A DNA stretch of 64,000 bases, from contig NZ_JAATJA010000001.1 of assembly GCF_011927665.1 (NCBI RefSeq), forward strand, positions 1,283,019 to 1,347,018, read 5' to 3'. Source of the DNA: Desulfobaculum xiamenense. GTDB lineage: Bacteria > Desulfobacterota > Desulfovibrionia > Desulfovibrionales > Desulfovibrionaceae. The stretch's first letter is position 1. Every line of letters begins with the position of its first letter. Shown here one piece after another: positions 3,049-11,154 of the stretch. The notes beneath the pieces were generated by a model. That model searched no databases, was not told where the DNA came from, and worked only from the letters and a program-made list of their open reading frames with translations. The position numbers and the translations under genes were made by a program.

Positions 3049-3576
3049 ATGCTCAGGATCCACGACACGGAGCAGGCAATCCATGATCTGTTCGACGCAG
3101 CCGAGGAAATGGCATCCCGGCCCGAGGACTTCACCGACGAGGAACGCGCTGAAATCCAGCGTGCGCTGGAAGAACAAGCCGATCTCCTCGCCAGCGAGGA
3201 GGCGGAACACGCGGACCGCTACGCCTTCGTGATTCGCAAGCGTCTCGACGAGGCGAGCTTTCTCCGCGAGGAGGCCCAGCGACTCCACGAGAGGGCGCGC
3301 GCCGTCGAGAACAACGTGGCGCGATTCAAGACCACGCTGATCGACGCCTTCAGACGGCACGGCATCCAGAAGATCAAGGGCGCGAAGTACACGGTGTTCC
3401 TGCGCACGGCCGAATCCGTGACCCTCGACGTCGATCCCGAGAACCTGCCGTCCGAATTCAGGAACGAGGTGATCGAGTACAAGCCGCGCAAGGCCGACAT
3501 CAAGGCCGCAATCAAGGCGGGCGGCACCGTGCCCGGAGCGCGGATCGTGGAGAATGTCAGCCTCACCATCCGCTAA
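3049..3576 (+). CDS. Siphovirus Gp157-like protein
   Basis: This 175-aa protein starts with an ATG behind an AAGGAGG site. The N-terminal two thirds is a charged helical/coiled region. The C-terminal part (KYTVFLRTAESVTLDV followed by PRKADIKAAIKAGGTVPGA) matches the signature of the Gp157 family (PF05565). That family was first noted in Streptococcus thermophilus siphophages, where it was linked to phage resistance when expressed by the host. The family assignment is strong; the mechanism is unknown. It sits 13 bases downstream of the previous gene in the same operon. Confidence 0.8.
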   Translation: MLRIHDTEQAIHDLFDAAEEMASRPEDFTDEERAEIQRALEEQADLLASEEAEHADRYAFVIRKRLDEASFLREEAQRLHERARAVENNVARFKTTLIDAFRRHGIQKIKGAKYTVFLRTAESVTLDVDPENLPSEFRNEVIEYKPRKADIKAAIKAGGTVPGARIVENVSLTIR

Positions 3577-4443: not shown

Positions 4444-4725
4444 ATGACCGTCCTCTATAGACCAGGCCTGTGCGAACTGTGCGAGAACAATGTCGAGAAC
4501 AGGGGAAAGGTTTGTGTGCTCGAAAGAAAGCACATCCGCGTCAACGCAAAGACGGGCGAGCCCTACATCTACCGAACGGACACTGTCTTTCACCCCATCA
4601 TCCGGCGCAACGCTGGCATTCCGGGCTGGCACAACATCGAAGGGCCGTATCCTGCGAAATGTGGAAACTTCCGCAAACGCAAGGACGCACTTGACCATGT
4701 TAGTACAGACAAACCGAACACATGA
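4444..4725 (+). CDS. Hypothetical phage protein with N-terminal CxxC
   Basis: This 93-aa protein has a good AGGAGG ribosome site upstream. It carries Cys-x2-Cys near residue 10 (LCELCENN) and further Cys and His residues (VFHPIIRRN, AKCGNFRKR), compatible with metal binding. The stop overlaps the methyltransferase start by 4 bases, so the two are probably translationally coupled. It could be an accessory factor of the methyltransferase, but there is no direct evidence for that. Confidence 0.5.
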   Translation: MTVLYRPGLCELCENNVENRGKVCVLERKHIRVNAKTGEPYIYRTDTVFHPIIRRNAGIPGWHNIEGPYPAKCGNFRKRKDALDHVSTDKPNT

Positions 4726-5507
4726 CCACCGCCCAGCCAACACCGGCACCGACCGTCGGGGAACTCTTCGCAGGGATCGGCGGAATGAGCCTCGGCCTCG
4801 CATGGGCGGGATTCAATGTTCGATGGCAGGTAGAAATAGATGAATGGTGCAGACGCATACTCGAAAGCCACTGGCCAGACGCCATACGCTTCGACGACAT
4901 CCGAACTCTCGACCCAGACAGTCTGGCTCCCGTTGATCTCATCTGCGGAGGCTACCCCTGCCAACCATTTTCCAACGCCGGAAAGCGAAAGGGCTCGCGC
5001 GATGACCGCCACCTCTGGCCGGAGGTTGTTCGCATCCTTCGCCATCTCCGAAGGATGGAACGACACCCCGCTTGGTGCCTGTTTGAAAACGTTGATGGCC
5101 ACGTCTCAATGGGCCTCGACAGCGTGCTTTCTGACCTGGAGGGAATCGGCTACACCTGCTGGCCGCTCATTGTTCCAGCTTGTGCCGTCGGGGCACGACA
5201 CCAAAGAAATCGAGTCTGGATTGTGGCCAACGCCAAACGCGACTTGTTTCAAGGGCGGCCGGCTCTCGCCTCGAAAGGATGTGGCCAATCCACTCAAGAA
5301 CAACTGGCAGGACTTCTGTTCCCTTGTCCTTGGCCATCGCTATCCGTCGCCAGAGCTTTCCGAGCTGGTGATGGGTTTTCCCGACAAGTGGACAGAAACA
5401 GGGCCATCGGAAATGCCGTCGTCCCACAGGTTGCATACATGATGGGCATGGCAATCCGGACCGCGCACGAGATCCACAATCTCCCCTACGCAGGAGACCC
5501 CACATGA
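4722..5507 (+). CDS. C5 cytosine-specific DNA methyltransferase
   Basis: This 261-aa enzyme contains the ordered C5-methyltransferase motifs: ELFAGIGG (I, residues 14–21), GGYPCQPFS (IV, catalytic Cys80), ENV (VI, 122–124), RHQRNRVWIVA (VIII, about 159–169) and RAIGNAVVPQ (X, near the C-terminus). Only about 45 residues separate motifs VIII and IX/X, so the target-recognition region is very short. No restriction endonuclease is nearby, so it is probably an orphan phage enzyme that protects or marks its own DNA. A second long frame overlaps it (see 4840–5442). Confidence 0.9.
   Translation: MTTAQPTPAPTVGELFAGIGGMSLGLAWAGFNVRWQVEIDEWCRRILESHWPDAIRFDDIRTLDPDSLAPVDLICGGYPCQPFSNAGKRKGSRDDRHLWPEVVRILRHLRRMERHPAWCLFENVDGHVSMGLDSVLSDLEGIGYTCWPLIVPACAVGARHQRNRVWIVANAKRDLFQGRPALASKGCGQSTQEQLAGLLFPCPWPSLSVARAFRAGDGFSRQVDRNRAIGNAVVPQVAYMMGMAIRTAHEIHNLPYAGDPT
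4840..5442 (+). other. Overlapping +1-frame ORF inside the methyltransferase gene
   Basis: This is a 200-codon open frame, shifted relative to the methyltransferase. Its translation contains motifs I recognise from annotated phage proteins, notably TACFLTWRESATPAGRSLFQ, SGLWPTPNA (5215–5241) and LVMGFPDKWT (5365–5394). The second and third are encoded by the same DNA as methyltransferase motifs VIII and X. Either this frame is a real overprinted gene, or such database proteins are out-of-frame readings of methyltransferase genes. I cannot decide from one sequence. Confidence 0.25.
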
Positions 5508-5584: not shown

Positions 5585-5617
5585 ATCGCAATCGTAAACC
5601 TCAGAGTGAGGAGCGAC

Positions 5618-5878
5618 ATGCCCCGCCACAAAGGCTCTGCCACAATCCGACAGGAATACCTGTCCCGCCCGCAGGCAGCGAGATTCTGCGGAGTCAGCCC
5701 CCGAACGTTCCGGCGGTGGGAAGAGTCCTACGCAATCCCGGCGAAAGGACCCGAACGAAATCGGTTTCTTATCGCTGACCTCTCCGCATTCATGGACAAC
5801 CCTGAAGAATTCCTCGCAACGAGACGAGGAAGCGCCCGACGCCCTGCAACTGGCTTCACTCCGGTTGTCGTGCGTTGA
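5618..5878 (+). CDS. Excisionase-like helix-turn-helix protein
   Basis: This 86-aa protein begins at an ATG behind GAGGAG. Residues about 12–40 (QEYLSRPQAARFCGVSPRTFRRWEE) form a MerR/AlpA-like winged helix of the kind found in excisionases. The rest is a short charged tail. It lies directly upstream of the integrase and nearly touches it, as expected for a recombination directionality factor. The fold is well supported; the excisionase role is inferred from position. Confidence 0.65.
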   Translation: MPRHKGSATIRQEYLSRPQAARFCGVSPRTFRRWEESYAIPAKGPERNRFLIADLSAFMDNPEEFLATRRGSARRPATGFTPVVVR

Positions 5879-5888
5879 AAATTACGGC

Positions 5889-6968
5889 ATGACCGTGGAC
5901 ATGAAACCTGTAACGGCAAGAGCCACAACGGATGGACGATGGTTCGTGTCCTATCGTGTGCAGGGCAAGAAGAGCCCTGTTCGCGAATACTTCGGACGCG
6001 GAAAGACTGGGGAACAGACGGCGAAAATCCGTGCTGCAGAGCTTAACCTGTCCAAGACCAAGGGAGAAACCCTTGGGCGGACATCAACGGACATCTATCT
6101 GGATGAACTGGCACAAGTATACTTGGACGACGCTAAACGGCGCGGAGTCTCCGAGTATTGGCGCAAGGAATTCACCGCGCTCCTCAACACCACGATTCTC
6201 CCGGCACTCTCTTCGCGTCCCGTCGATCAGATTTCCTTCGCGGACATCGTGCGCATGGCCGACGGCTGGGGCAAATCCGTTGCCACAACCAACCGCTATC
6301 TGGGATACCTGCGCGCTGTGTTCCGCTTCGGGCTGGACCAGGACATCACCACCGTCAACCCTCTTCGGAAATGGCGAAAGGCCAAGGAGACAACCAAGCG
6401 CGACTTCCGGCTGACCATGGAAGACTTCGAACGGATCCGCGCGAAGGCAATGCCCCACCTCGCCATTGCCATGGAGATCGAACTAATGACATGGGCTCGC
6501 CCCGGTCCGACGGAACTCTTCAAGCTCCACAAGCGCGACATCGACCCGGAAGCCAAGACCATCCGCATTCGCGGAACCAAGACGCCAACATCGGATCGCC
6601 TCATGCATCTTGATGGCGACGAAGTCTGCAGGCTGCTGGAAATCACAAGCCTCTCGAAATCGGGATACCTGATCGAATACGCAGGCGCACCGGTCAAGCA
6701 GATTGCCAGATCGTGGGCGGCTGCCGTCGAAGCTGCGGGCATCACCTACCATGTCACACCCTATGACATCCGCCACCTCGGCATATCCGAAGCCCTCAGA
6801 GCCGGGGCTGATCTCGCCGCCGTCTCCCAGATGGCGGGGCACGCCGACATCTCCACCACCCAACGCAAATACTACCACTGCCTCAAGGGTGAGAAGGCCA
6901 GAGCGGCCACCCTCAAGGCCAAGGCAGCCCGCCCAAAGGCTGGCAAAGTCGTCAACTTCCCACGATGA
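5889..6968 (+). CDS. Tyrosine recombinase (phage integrase)
   Basis: This 359-aa protein has an N-terminal arm-binding region, a core-binding domain (about 65–165) and a C-terminal catalytic domain. Candidate catalytic residues are Arg204 (TWARPG), Lys231, Arg295 in PYDIRH, His318 in MAGHAD and the tyrosine at 328/329 in RKYYH. The position usually held by His in HxxR is Tyr292. I chose the ATG at 5889; a TTG opens the frame at 5865. The gene lies next to a tRNA-Pro 3' end with arm-type repeats between them, so the target site is almost certainly that tRNA gene. Confidence 0.9.
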   Translation: MTVDMKPVTARATTDGRWFVSYRVQGKKSPVREYFGRGKTGEQTAKIRAAELNLSKTKGETLGRTSTDIYLDELAQVYLDDAKRRGVSEYWRKEFTALLNTTILPALSSRPVDQISFADIVRMADGWGKSVATTNRYLGYLRAVFRFGLDQDITTVNPLRKWRKAKETTKRDFRLTMEDFERIRAKAMPHLAIAMEIELMTWARPGPTELFKLHKRDIDPEAKTIRIRGTKTPTSDRLMHLDGDEVCRLLEITSLSKSGYLIEYAGAPVKQIARSWAAAVEAAGITYHVTPYDIRHLGISEALRAGADLAAVSQMAGHADISTTQRKYYHCLKGEKARAATLKAKAARPKAGKVVNFPR

Positions 6969-7350: not shown

Positions 7351-7635
7351 ATGCCAGACTCCCCAAAAGCCTCCCCCGCCGCTCATCTGGAGAAAAACGA
7401 CCTTTTTTTTAAAACAAGCCCGTATCTTCCCCACTGGCCAACCTGTCCGAAGGATGGGGACCTCCTCTTGAACGCGAGAATGGACAGGGAGCGTAAATCG
7501 CATTTAAAAGTTCACTCCATGGCCACCAATTACAACCGCATTTACGATGCCATAGTCAAGCTTACATCAGATATTCCGTGTGCCCCTGCAGCGTGGATAT
7601 TGCGAACAACCCCAAAATTTCCCGTAACGCCCTGA
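7351..7635 (+). CDS. Doubtful small ORF, 94 aa
   Basis: An ATG at 7351 follows a good AAGGAGG site. The frame encodes 94 residues with a central HWPTCPKDGDLLLN segment. The last 69 bases overlap the antisense end of the kinase gene. The DNA around PTCPKDGD is repeated near 18356. I cannot assign a function. It may be a remnant of the sequence that originally followed the tRNA. Confidence 0.25.
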   Translation: MPDSPKASPAAHLEKNDLFFKTSPYLPHWPTCPKDGDLLLNARMDRERKSHLKVHSMATNYNRIYDAIVKLTSDIPCAPAAWILRTTPKFPVTP

Positions 7636-9723
7636 ACGTTGCCGCATCAAAGAGCCACAACACGGGCAGGTGGGGGTGCTAGATGTGGCAATTGTTTGAG
7701 GTGGTGTAGGTGCTGTGGTGTGGGATATTGGGGAAGGTGGCGGCGTGAAACGGATCGGTGGTGTCATCATCAGTGAGACAGTTGATGCTGGAATCGATGC
7801 ACCCAACGCGCGCAGGTCTTGTTCTGCTTGGGCGCGAACAGCAATCGCGTCGGTCAGCGCCCCGTCGCTTCTGGCCCTCGTGGGCAATGCGTCAAGCCGG
7901 GCTTTGGCGTTTCTCAGGGTCCCCAGCCCGTTGCGGATCGTGGATTCCAGCTTCGCCTTTTCTGCCGCAAATCGTCCACGCAACGCCCTTTCGTCGGCAA
8001 TGTCCTGAGCGTTCGGCGTCCGGTCATACCTAAACCGGGACTCATGTCCCCGCCGCCACGCCATCAGCTTGCCGGTCATCACGTCACCAAAACCCGGCAC
8101 TCGCAGCACGGCGGAATGGTTCACATCAGCGGCGGTCTCGATTCCGAAGGATATCAGTGTTGCCGTTTTCGCCGGGCCGATACCGGAGATATTCGCGCGC
8201 CGGACGGAGAAACGGTCAAGATAGGCCTGTCGCTGGCGCGACTCCCGGTTGGACTTCATCTCCATGAGTTCGCGGGCAAGCGCATCGTCATGGCCCTTGT
8301 AGACGCCGATTGCGGCGTCCAAATCGGCGCGCACCTTCATAACCTCAGTCATGCCGTTACGTTTGACAAAGGCATTCAACTCTCGCTGCACACTTTCATC
8401 GGCATTTTTGAAGGCCTGTTGAAACGGGCCGGGGTCAACTTCACGGTTGGAGAAGATGAGCCACCCCCAGATTGCTAGCCCGATCCACACAAACCACGCC
8501 GGGGCGACGGAGATGAAACCAGCGACTGCGCCGCCCATCATCAACAAGCCCATGAAAGCACTCCCGCGCTTCCCGCTCCTAGCTTGATTCAGTGCATTGC
8601 TGGCACCGCGCGGCGTAGCCGCAGCGGGAAGCAAGTCCGCGACCGTTGGGAAGCGAAATGCCAGAATCTCGCGGATTGCCTGTTCTGTGCCCCGCACATC
8701 GGTTGGGATATTCGATTCCACGGCGGTCAGGTCCGGGAACATGTCAAAACCGCTGTTGGCGATCAGCTTGCACCAGATACACCCACCGGCGGCGCTGGGG
8801 TAGTAGTGTGTCTTGACCTTGCTACACTGGTTCAGTGAGCCTTTCAGAGCCTTGAGGGCGTAAATCCAGTCCATCGCGCTCGGACGCGCGCCCGGTGTCA
8901 GGCCGAATGCGTTCTCGAATGCACGGGAGACAGCATCCGGGAACATATCGAGTGTCAGCGCGCCGGGTGGCGGCGTTGTCCGTGTTGCCGCTTGCCGGGT
9001 GAGCGAAAAGGCAAACCGGTTCTGGGCAATGGCTTCGCCCATGGAAATGTCCGGTCCCTTGTAGCACCCAGCGTAGGGGTGACGGCCCATGAAAAGAAGG
9101 TGGAAGATCGCAACCGCCAGCCCGAAGTTGTCGTGCTCTATAGTGCGCTCCACGTTTTCGAAGCGAATTCCGTGTAGTTCTGGCGGAGTGAATTCAGGAA
9201 CGCCAACAACACAGGGGTAGGTCTTGCCATTCCGCCGAAACTGAAAGCTGTCGGCATCAATGATGGCAACTGTGGCGTCCTGCGCCACAAGCACGCCAGA
9301 ATGGTTTAGATCGCCGATGACACATCCCGTCTGGTGCACCTCCCCAACGGCGCGCGCGACGTTCAATGCAGCGTGAACGAGAAACCGATAATCCGACTTC
9401 GGGAAATGGTGCTGGCGGGATTTGGGGCTATAGAGCTCATGTAGTTCACGGTGTGTTGGCACCAGCCGCATAGCGAACCCAAGGAATTCCCCCGTCGACG
9501 ATGTTGCTACCTCCACAGGATACGTTACCAGAGTCGTCGCTTGACCAAGCCCCTCGGCGACCATGGCCCGTATTTTACCCTCACGGCTACCTCTGTTGTT
9601 CGGCTTGTAGAGCTTGACCGCCAGATCGGACTTCCCACTCAGGCGAAAAACGTCACCTTCGTTTCCACCCCCCAGTTTCTCCCCAACAGTGCACCGTTCC
9701 TTTCCTATTACTACGCTCGGCAC
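7567..9723 (-). CDS. YegI-like protein kinase with HhH and zinc-finger C-terminus (TerY-P triad kinase)
   Basis: This 718-aa protein has an N-terminal kinase domain. A glycine-rich loop GGGNEGDVF (18–26), Lys37 in AVKLYK, a catalytic Asp138 in IGDLNHSG and a metal-binding Asp156 in IIDADSF are visible. Gly143 occupies the position of the usual catalytic-loop Asn, which I believe is common in this subfamily. Then come two hydrophobic segments (about 390–430), a helix-hairpin-helix pair (about 520–570, ISGIGPAKTATL and VPGFGDVMTG) and a four-Cys topoisomerase-type finger at the C-terminus. It follows the phosphatase gene by 2 bases. Domain order and operon match the vWA–PP2C–kinase TerY-P triad and E. 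coli YegI. Confidence 0.85.
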   Translation of the reverse strand: MPSVVIGKERCTVGEKLGGGNEGDVFRLSGKSDLAVKLYKPNNRGSREGKIRAMVAEGLGQATTLVTYPVEVATSSTGEFLGFAMRLVPTHRELHELYSPKSRQHHFPKSDYRFLVHAALNVARAVGEVHQTGCVIGDLNHSGVLVAQDATVAIIDADSFQFRRNGKTYPCVVGVPEFTPPELHGIRFENVERTIEHDNFGLAVAIFHLLFMGRHPYAGCYKGPDISMGEAIAQNRFAFSLTRQAATRTTPPPGALTLDMFPDAVSRAFENAFGLTPGARPSAMDWIYALKALKGSLNQCSKVKTHYYPSAAGGCIWCKLIANSGFDMFPDLTAVESNIPTDVRGTEQAIREILAFRFPTVADLLPAAATPRGASNALNQARSGKRGSAFMGLLMMGGAVAGFISVAPAWFVWIGLAIWGWLIFSNREVDPGPFQQAFKNADESVQRELNAFVKRNGMTEVMKVRADLDAAIGVYKGHDDALARELMEMKSNRESRQRQAYLDRFSVRRANISGIGPAKTATLISFGIETAADVNHSAVLRVPGFGDVMTGKLMAWRRGHESRFRYDRTPNAQDIADERALRGRFAAEKAKLESTIRNGLGTLRNAKARLDALPTRARSDGALTDAIAVRAQAEQDLRALGASIPASTVSLMMTPPIRFTPPPSPISHTTAPTPPQTIATSSTPTCPCCGSLMRQRSGRYGKFWGCSQYPRCRGTRNI

Positions 9724-9725
9724 GG

Positions 9726-10499
9726 TCAGCCCCCGGATATGAGGATGAGCGTCTTGTCGTCATCGGTGCGTTCGCAGACCGATGAACCGGCGAGATATGT
9801 GGCGAGCTTCGCCGATAGTTCGACAAGGCGGCCCTCACCCGATGCGACATCCACCGGTCGAAGCATGGGATCGAAGAACCGGGCGTGCGCGCTCTGTTCC
9901 AGATGCGACAACCCCAGATCTCCGACACCATCGGAAAACAGTGCAAATGCATCGTGTTTGCGTGGGTGGCGGGTGATGTTCAGACGCGGTTCGGGATCAT
10001 CGGTTACAAAGTAGGTGGTGGACGCATATTCGCCGTTCTCAGGCCAGCACAGCACCTCCCACTCGGTGTTTTTCCGGCCGACAACGGCGCTATCGCCGAT
10101 GTGGAGCGTTACAGCCTCATTCGGAGTGACAACGATTGCCGCCAGCGTCGCGGCGAATTGCCGGGGTGTAGATTCTCGCCGGGTAGCTATTGCCGATATT
10201 CGGTCCCGCAGTTCAGCAATCCAGTCCGCCAATATTTCATTGGGCGGCATGTCTGGATTGATGCGAACCCATTCCCGGAATCGAACCGAAAGGAAGCGGC
10301 AAGTAAGCCATGCGCCGTATGCACCAAATTTGGCGCTGCCTGCGCCATCCGAAACAACAGCGAAAATGCCGCCGTTTTCGAATGCGGCAACAGCGTAGGC
10401 ATCTTGCAGCCTACCATCATTCTGAATGTGCGACGTTCCGATTACGGACGCGGACGCCCACCGCCAAGCCACAATTTCACCCTGCAACAGCCCAGCCAT
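9726..10499 (-). CDS. PP2C-family serine/threonine phosphatase (TerY-P triad)
   Basis: This 257-aa protein carries PP2C motifs: an early Asp in [23 protein letters not shown], the core [18 protein letters not shown] and a final DDDKTLIL. These supply the acidic metal ligands. The start at 10499 lies 23 bases inside the end of the vWA gene, so expression is coupled. In this family the phosphatase is thought to reverse the action of the partner kinase on a shared target, possibly the vWA protein (inference from family literature). E. coli YegK is the closest named relative. Confidence 0.85.
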
Positions 10500-11154
10500 C
10501 CGGGGCGGCCGGGTTTTCGAGTGGGACGGCATCACCCGGGTTGGACTGAGAGACAGCGCTTAGGGAGCTGGACAGCCACTGGAATAGCTCCCTGAAGGCC
10601 AAGCCTTTCAGCTTGAGCGGCTGGCGTGTGGCGATCTGTCCAAGAACGTTCATATCCGCCTGTTCCACACCTACAGCATAGAACATGAATTCCTTGCTCT
10701 CTTCGCCTTGGTGCACCCGTCGCTTAGCCTCTTCCCAACTATCGGTCGGGGCGCCATCGGTAATAAGGAACACCCACGGGCGGTAATATTTAACACCATT
10801 CTCACGGTACCGATCTTTACGCTGACGGAGCATATTGAGCCCAGTCACAACCGCTTCGCCCATCGGCGTTGCATTGTCCGCCACCAGTGTTTCGGGATAA
10901 AAGTGATCCACTGTAGTAAAGTCGGATTTGATCTCGACTGGCCCAAAAGTGACCATAGCTAATTCCACGCGCTTTGCGGCCACTGCGTCGTTCATGAGTT
11001 CTTGGCGCAAAGTAGCTAATCCTTCATTTAATTCCGAAATTGGCTTACCGCTCATGGAATAGGATGTATCTAATAGGAGTATTACAGGGCATCTCTGCTC
11101 TGGGTTTTCCGCGAATTCCGCATCGCTGAATGGTTGTTGATCAAATTCACTCAT
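10477..11154 (-). CDS. von Willebrand factor A domain protein (TerY/YegL-like, TerY-P triad)
   Basis: This 225-aa protein is a single vWA domain. The metal-ion-dependent adhesion site is complete: DTSYSMSG (about residues 29–36), a Thr in NATPMGEA and an Asp in ITDGAPTD. It is the first gene of the three-gene minus-strand operon. vWA proteins of this type act as adaptors that bind partners through the metal site; in the TerY-P triad the partners are predicted to be the kinase and phosphatase targets. Named relatives are TerY and YegL. Confidence 0.85.

Follow-up and report, generated by a model that had tools for sequence, protein, structure and literature searches.

A C5-cytosine DNA methyltransferase gene in Desulfobaculum xiamenense contains a second long open reading frame, shifted by +1. 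The locus raises the question whether this inner frame is a gene in its own right and, if so, what its product contributes. It lies in a stretch of 64,000 nucleotides, referred to here as the window. An earlier note, made from the letters of this DNA, offered a choice of two options: the pair might be an overprinted gene, or out-of-frame readings of methyltransferases might make up a class of database proteins. We consider it highly probable that the two frames encode a heterodimeric C5-cytosine methyltransferase of the M.EcoHK31I type, with the smaller subunit translated from its own internal start.

Two nested frames and the division of motifs

The outer frame (4722..5507, + strand) encodes a protein of 261 amino acids, termed alpha, with matches to PF00145 (7.6e-43), phrog_363 (8.3e-69) and TIGR00675 (5.1e-31). 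Its single chain carries the motifs that define a C5-methyltransferase of the PF00145 family, all encoded on the + strand: motif I (FAGIGG, SAM binding, 4767..4784; G18, I19 and G21 are invariant in alignment A1), motif IV (GGYPCQPFS with the catalytic Cys80, 4947..4973; PCQP invariant), motif VI (ENV, 5085..5093; E122 and N123 invariant), motif VIII (QRNRVWIVA, 5202..5228; R162 and R164 invariant) and motif X (GNAVVPQVA, 5409..5435), the last situated over the final codons of the inner frame. The earlier note had credited this frame with all C5-methyltransferase motifs, which proved wrong. Both the target-recognition part (TRD) and motif IX are absent from the alpha frame and found in the +1 frame, so that alpha does not qualify as a single-chain enzyme, and its motifs VIII and X are joined by nothing more than a linker of about 54 residues. 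Because of this absence, the PF00145 match is restricted to profile positions 3-164 of 324.

The inner frame (4840..5442, + strand) comprises 200 codons from its ATG and is fully nested in alpha, as the earlier note had described; its product is termed beta and is supported by a phrog_1008 match and by the codon-position, fourfold and recoding tests. The peptides SGLWPTPNA (5215-5241) and LVMGFPDKWT (5365-5394) were likewise found where they had been reported. Of the overlaps claimed for them, that of SGLWPTPNA with the end of motif VIII stands, but LVMGFPDKWT does not reach motif X: it is located just upstream, over the poorly conserved alpha linker, where motif IX belongs. The N-terminal domain of beta (TATSG...STACFLTW...ATPAGRSLFQLVPS) is encoded in a dual-coded region over alpha motifs IV-VIII (4912..5214, + strand), supported by fourfold divergence and recoding. 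It is followed by the TRD (SGLWPTPNATCFKGGRLSPRKDVANPLKNNWQDFCSLVLGHRYP..., 5215..5364, + strand), over which the alpha frame encodes linker only, and by the motif IX-like segment LVMGFPDKWT on the same strand. Judged by its place and pattern, the stretch LWPTP...LVMGFPDKWT represents the TRD and motif IX in their canonical place between motifs VIII and X. Motif IX was assigned on its location, its pattern and a comparison with the single-chain relatives L299 and L300, which have it in the same position; a profile match to a curated motif IX model was not obtained.

Related loci were gathered in separate searches with alpha, with beta and with only the TRD of beta, and annotated phage records were added. 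The alpha-selected set consists of the 80 best-scoring alpha loci, of which 79 distinct loci were counted; since these are top scorers, the following motif counts describe a subfamily and not all C5-methyltransferases. A motif IX pattern (MGxPxxW-like) in an unbroken +1 frame is present in 76 of the 79 and in the alpha frame of none; the alpha frame contains motif X (GNxV) in 78 of them. The three loci without the exact motif IX pattern do possess the +1 ORF, with a variant motif.

The resemblance of the +1 segments to annotated phage proteins was borne out. Beta matches PHROG_1008, 'DNA methyltransferase' (9.7e-20, residues 30-156), and 79 phage records (tblastn). Pfam and NCBIfam contain no family or curated model that matched beta, and a beta profile search against PDB sequences gave no match. 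An AlphaFold2 model of beta alone, computed with 62 aligned sequences, is of low confidence (pLDDT 64.6, pTM 0.34), and a PDB fold search with this model found no match.

Only jointly do the two frames supply the full C5-methyltransferase set, with motifs I-VIII in frame 0, TRD and motif IX in frame +1, and motif X again in frame 0. This division of motifs is a computed result, as are the conserved arrangement and the selection on both frames. Alpha would bind SAM and supply the catalytic cysteine (motifs I-VIII and X); beta would start at the internal ATG behind a Shine-Dalgarno sequence and supply target recognition together with motif IX, presumably setting the target site. From their complementary motifs, which the earlier note had overlooked, the two products very probably form one DNA-methylating enzyme; both proteins would be made and would bind each other.

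The start of beta and the role of its product

The ATG of beta at 4840 directly follows an in-frame stop. The Shine-Dalgarno-like sequence AGGTAG (4828..4833, + strand) ends six bases upstream of it, with a duplex energy of -6.8 kcal/mol. A relative (L075) has the same beta start (MNSAQRFSKKTGQTF) with a value of -8.8, and the beta proteins of Lily, Paisley and Jacopo begin with MES... behind Shine-Dalgarno sequences of -7 to -12. Across loci, the Shine-Dalgarno sequences ahead of ATG and GTG codons near motif IV are stronger in the open beta frame than in the other two frames (p 4e-8). The start of alpha itself displays no clear Shine-Dalgarno sequence; its ATG overlaps the stop of an upstream ORF of 93 amino acids (4444..4725, + strand; no PHROG match) as ATGA, an overlap that suggests translational coupling.

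Programmed ribosomal frameshifting could offer another route to a complete enzyme. Ribosomes would begin at alpha and slip by +1, producing a fusion of motifs I-VIII, TRD and motif IX instead of a separate beta. The motifs follow each other on the DNA in canonical order, so that such a fusion would read correctly, and in some loci the +1 frame is open far upstream of the likely beta start. In the window, any slip must fall after 4840 because of the stop directly before the beta ATG. A slip near the junction of motif VIII and TRD would leave the upstream +1 frame unneeded, yet that frame is selected all the way from motif IV to motif VIII (133 vs 51 bits, see below). The fusion would also lose motif X unless a second shift occurred, and it does not account for the excess of Shine-Dalgarno sequences at beta-frame start codons. 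We rejected this fusion on the grounds of the selection and of the excess at beta starts, and regard it as very improbable.

Beta might also be a real protein with a different task, for example anti-restriction or regulation, while alpha works alone. The N-terminal domain of beta, for which no known relative exists, would fit such a role. On the other side, TRD and motif IX are missing from alpha and are supplied by beta at the very place on the DNA where single-chain relatives have them; and M.EcoHK31I needs two proteins, going by the title of Lee 1995 as cited in PMC3404938. A separate function of beta thus appears very unlikely, and the two-subunit enzyme with an internal beta start remains the preferred reading.

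Selection on the two frames

In a +1 overlap, codon position 3 of alpha is position 2 of beta, and position 1 of alpha is position 3 of beta. Mismatch rates were determined in 56 independent pairs with 62-92% alpha identity, aligned as plain DNA; all 456 pairs were compared as well. Four regions were distinguished: R1 before motif IV, R2 from motif IV to VIII, R3 from motif VIII to the beta stop, and R4 behind the beta stop. At alpha positions 1/2/3 the 56 pairs display rates of.154/.088/.397 in R1,.125/.070/.234 in R2,.269/.138/.148 in R3 and.145/.118/.410 in R4. Position 1 exceeds position 3 within R3 in 51 of the 56 pairs (p 1e-10), and within R1 and R4 in no pair. The window displays the same R3 pattern against relatives with its TRD (e.g..66/.20/.18 against L029).

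Fourfold sites agree with this picture. The earlier note had proposed to compute the synonymous-site constraint in each frame: alpha fourfold divergence falls from 0.437 in R1 to 0.223 in R2 and 0.090 in R3, and returns to 0.490 in R4 after the beta stop. Beta fourfold divergence in R3 amounts to.319. Sites synonymous in alpha are thereby suppressed 2-5 fold within the overlap. Single-chain P2-type methyltransferases, compared in 30 independent pairs, served as a control; position 3 exceeds position 1 in 30/30 pairs in every region, and fourfold divergence (.465,.617,.669 and.626) displays no reduction in R2 or R3. According to the position and fourfold patterns, therefore, R1 and R4 are constrained by alpha only, R2 is constrained in both frames, and in R3 beta dominates. 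The +1 frame is a real, selected gene, and both frames are under selection. Stops freely interrupting the +1 frame in homologues, with undiminished synonymous variation, had been named as the outcome that speaks against such a gene; what was found is the reverse, with the +1 frame open and carrying motif IX in 76/79 loci.

The open frame of the window by itself is only mildly unusual. When alpha is recoded synonymously, the 200-codon +1 frame stays open in 13-22 of 1000 recodings, depending on the null, and by permutation in 2.7%. With 1-3% of recodings open as well, the openness of the window ORF was not taken to suffice as evidence, and the real evidence for beta is hence comparative. Among the relatives, beta frames are open given alpha in 66 loci vs 2.4 expected, and alpha frames are open given beta in R3 in 67 vs 6.3 expected, both in a set that had been filtered for open frames; the unfiltered count of openness is the 76/79 of the alpha-selected loci.

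These recodings bear on the second option of the earlier note, that of database proteins read out of frame; the +1 similarity would then be a by-product of conserved codons in alpha. A beta profile was built from 94 relatives, each <46% identical. Recodings that preserve alpha only still reach 60.5 +/- 12.4 bits (max 105) and 74.6 +/- 11.7 bits (max 117) against this profile under two nulls. A shadow similarity of 60-75 bits is thus real, and a GC-rich +1 frame of this length is open in about 1-3% of recodings. The shadow does not, however, explain the 190.4 bits of the window beta, which 2000 alpha-synonymous recodings (at most 117) never approach and which lie about 10 standard deviations above them. 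The part of beta over motifs IV-VIII scores 133 bits vs 51 +/- 11 when recoded (max 97), and the part behind motif VIII 47.9 bits vs a recoded maximum of 23.5, where alpha is poorly conserved. Moreover, the synonymous suppression in the overlap is absent from the monomeric controls, and of the two readings of R3, that of alpha is the one with poor conservation. The artefact is refuted by the tests on synonymous sites and on recodings, and we consider it extremely unlikely. The first option, an overprinted gene, was right; synonymous sites, recodings and the frames of relatives all agree on it.

Relatives, known systems and the prophage setting

The earlier note had also asked whether +1 matches are always embedded in methyltransferase genes. 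The best beta-like match is situated inside alpha, in the +1 frame, in 231/235 distinct loci. Two of the remaining four are in contigs that end near the gene, and two (L014, L077) resemble single indels. In these two and in L291, the TRD region displays a joint shift of both frames, which a single indel or an assembly error would produce; such errors stand out readily in a gene that is read in two frames. A broken or mis-sequenced single-chain methyltransferase, in which a pair of indels put TRD and motif IX out of frame, might be imagined from these three loci and from the single-chain relatives L299 and L300, but as a general explanation it is refuted by the same arrangement in >200 distinct loci with selection maintained in both frames, which leaves it a negligible chance.

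The arrangement was found in these >200 distinct viral and prophage loci across many hosts, and the closest relatives of the window are only about 50-55% identical. A search of genome contigs with the TRD alignment gave no confirmed relative. In four family genomes (L044, L049, L052, L057), alpha has one long open antisense frame (237-273 codons), which GC-rich codon usage probably brings about through its effect on composition.

Split and fused forms occur among actinophages. The alpha of Nyxis and GordDuk1 stops shortly behind motif VIII, and the +1 ORF contains TRD, motif IX and motif X; in Jabberwocky and prophiT49-1, a single chain has matches to the alpha as well as the beta PHROGs. Three actinophage loci (L019, L026, L301) are split, and two (L299, L300) are single chains with the alpha and beta PHROGs in one ORF. 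In the actinophage set, which includes L020 and L021, the enzyme occurs split, partly shifted or fused, and its TRD contains several LLPTPxAxDxKG repeats. From the split and single-chain states, the C-terminal half of beta can be read as the ordinary C-terminal half of a C5-methyltransferase, and the N-terminal domain over motifs IV-VIII as the overprinted novelty. On this comparison the overprinting is mutual, with the beta N-terminal domain laid over alpha motifs IV-VIII and the alpha linker over beta TRD and motif IX.

Sequence identities with the window run crosswise. Loci L066-L076 are 62-69% identical in the TRD, 40-54% in the alpha catalytic part and 22-48% in the N-terminal part of beta, whereas L149 and L156 have 58% in the alpha catalytic part and 57-61% in the beta N-terminal part, with only 35-37% in the TRD. 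The TRD therefore moves as a unit, which suggests that recombination within the dual-coded stretch swaps TRD modules. Based on this dataset, we lean slightly towards the view that methyltransferases with mutual overprinting make up a large phage family, most of it without a name: each subunit would consist of an old part and of a new part laid over the old part of the other, with the overlap kept across unrelated hosts and whole TRDs swapped inside it. If so, each TRD exchange must leave both frames open, and the N-terminal domain of beta would have arisen through overprinting, with no counterpart in Pfam or among solved structures.

Methylases made of two proteins from two frames are known from a few bacterial enzymes. 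M.EcoHK31I (YGGCCR) is a C5-methyltransferase of two polypeptides, and M.EaeI is a second case. In M.EcoHK31I, the large gene reportedly encloses the small one, which is read in a different frame. The large subunit of this enzyme has motifs I-VIII and X, and motif IX is on the small subunit (PMC3404938). Compared by description of the layout, alpha corresponds to this large subunit in having motifs I-VIII and X without IX, and beta to the small one through LVMGFPDKWT; a small gene nested in another frame, with both frames selected, is likewise found here. On the other hand, the TRD of M.EcoHK31I has been assigned to the large subunit (PMC3404938), while a TRD-like block is present in beta here, and M.EcoHK31I is part of a restriction-modification system, while the present gene is a prophage orphan.

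Among phages, the same layout is present in Paenibacillus phage Lily (gp62/gp63) and its relatives (Fernvirus, Harrisonvirus). The beta of Lily was annotated by the depositors as 'g62 internal gene', belongs to phrog_1008 and is 39% identical to the window beta; it differs in its TRD sequence and in a strictly internal start with a strong Shine-Dalgarno sequence. Streptococcus (pneumococcal) phage MM1 (L017; DQ113772 orf13/orf14) has depositor-annotated alpha and beta subunits (phages MM1/VO1, Obregon 2003); beta (1640-2065) occupies the +1 frame entirely within alpha (1489-2646). Its alpha is longer, however, and its beta belongs mainly to PHROG 16143 (5e-82), with a weak match to phrog_1008 (5e-4). 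MM1 and a Faecalimonas phage (L027) represent a second beta type in the +1 frame, without MGxPxxW; that of MM1 ends with SLSDILEEEVDERYFLSAEMVQRLL. The M.AquI type and the actinophage pairs (Nyxis gp78/77, GordDuk1, Jamun) also have the catalytic half and the TRD-IX half on separate polypeptides, and in the actinophage pairs the second ORF is likewise in the +1 frame. They differ in that the first polypeptide ends soon after motif VIII and the second holds motif X along with motif IX. Since motif X stays in alpha in the window, the overlap is a full nesting.

In view of the M.EcoHK31I layout and of the depositor annotations in Lily and MM1, this kind of gene pair is already known. A literature search on overprinted phage C5-methyltransferases found nothing specific among the papers covered; the breadth of the family, the change of the selected frame along the gene as measured here and the exchange of TRDs inside dual-coded DNA seem to be little described. 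Apart from small viruses, cases of fully nested genes on the same strand with selection shown in two frames are rare, and such genes are discarded by most gene callers. With many independent loci in tailed phages and prophages and a matched monomeric control, the family could serve as a test bed for the evolution of overlapping genes. Searches for long ORFs only will miss the subunit that sets specificity, for which Pfam and NCBIfam hold no model. Crediting a methylome to alpha alone, or working with a recoded alpha clone, would mislead. Codon optimization of alpha would destroy beta.

Judged from its neighbors, the methyltransferase gene is located in the early region of a prophage, with a CI-like repressor (249-989), a Mu Gam-like protein (3049-3576), an excisionase-like HTH protein (5606-5878) and the tyrosine integrase of the surrounding prophage or integrative element (5865..6968, + strand; phrog_1 4.4e-48; PF00589). 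No restriction enzyme was recognized among the neighbors examined. Because of this early region, the adjoining integrase and the lack of a recognized restriction enzyme nearby, the enzyme is probably an orphan methylase that shields phage DNA from restriction. Beyond the integrase, three adjacent genes on the - strand (7567-11154) encode a kinase-like protein of 718 amino acids with a zinc-ribbon-like C-terminal end, a phosphatase-like protein of 269 amino acids and a VWA-like protein of 225 amino acids. Their PHROG matches are to families of unknown function only, and the set presumably resembles a TerY-phosphorylation triad.
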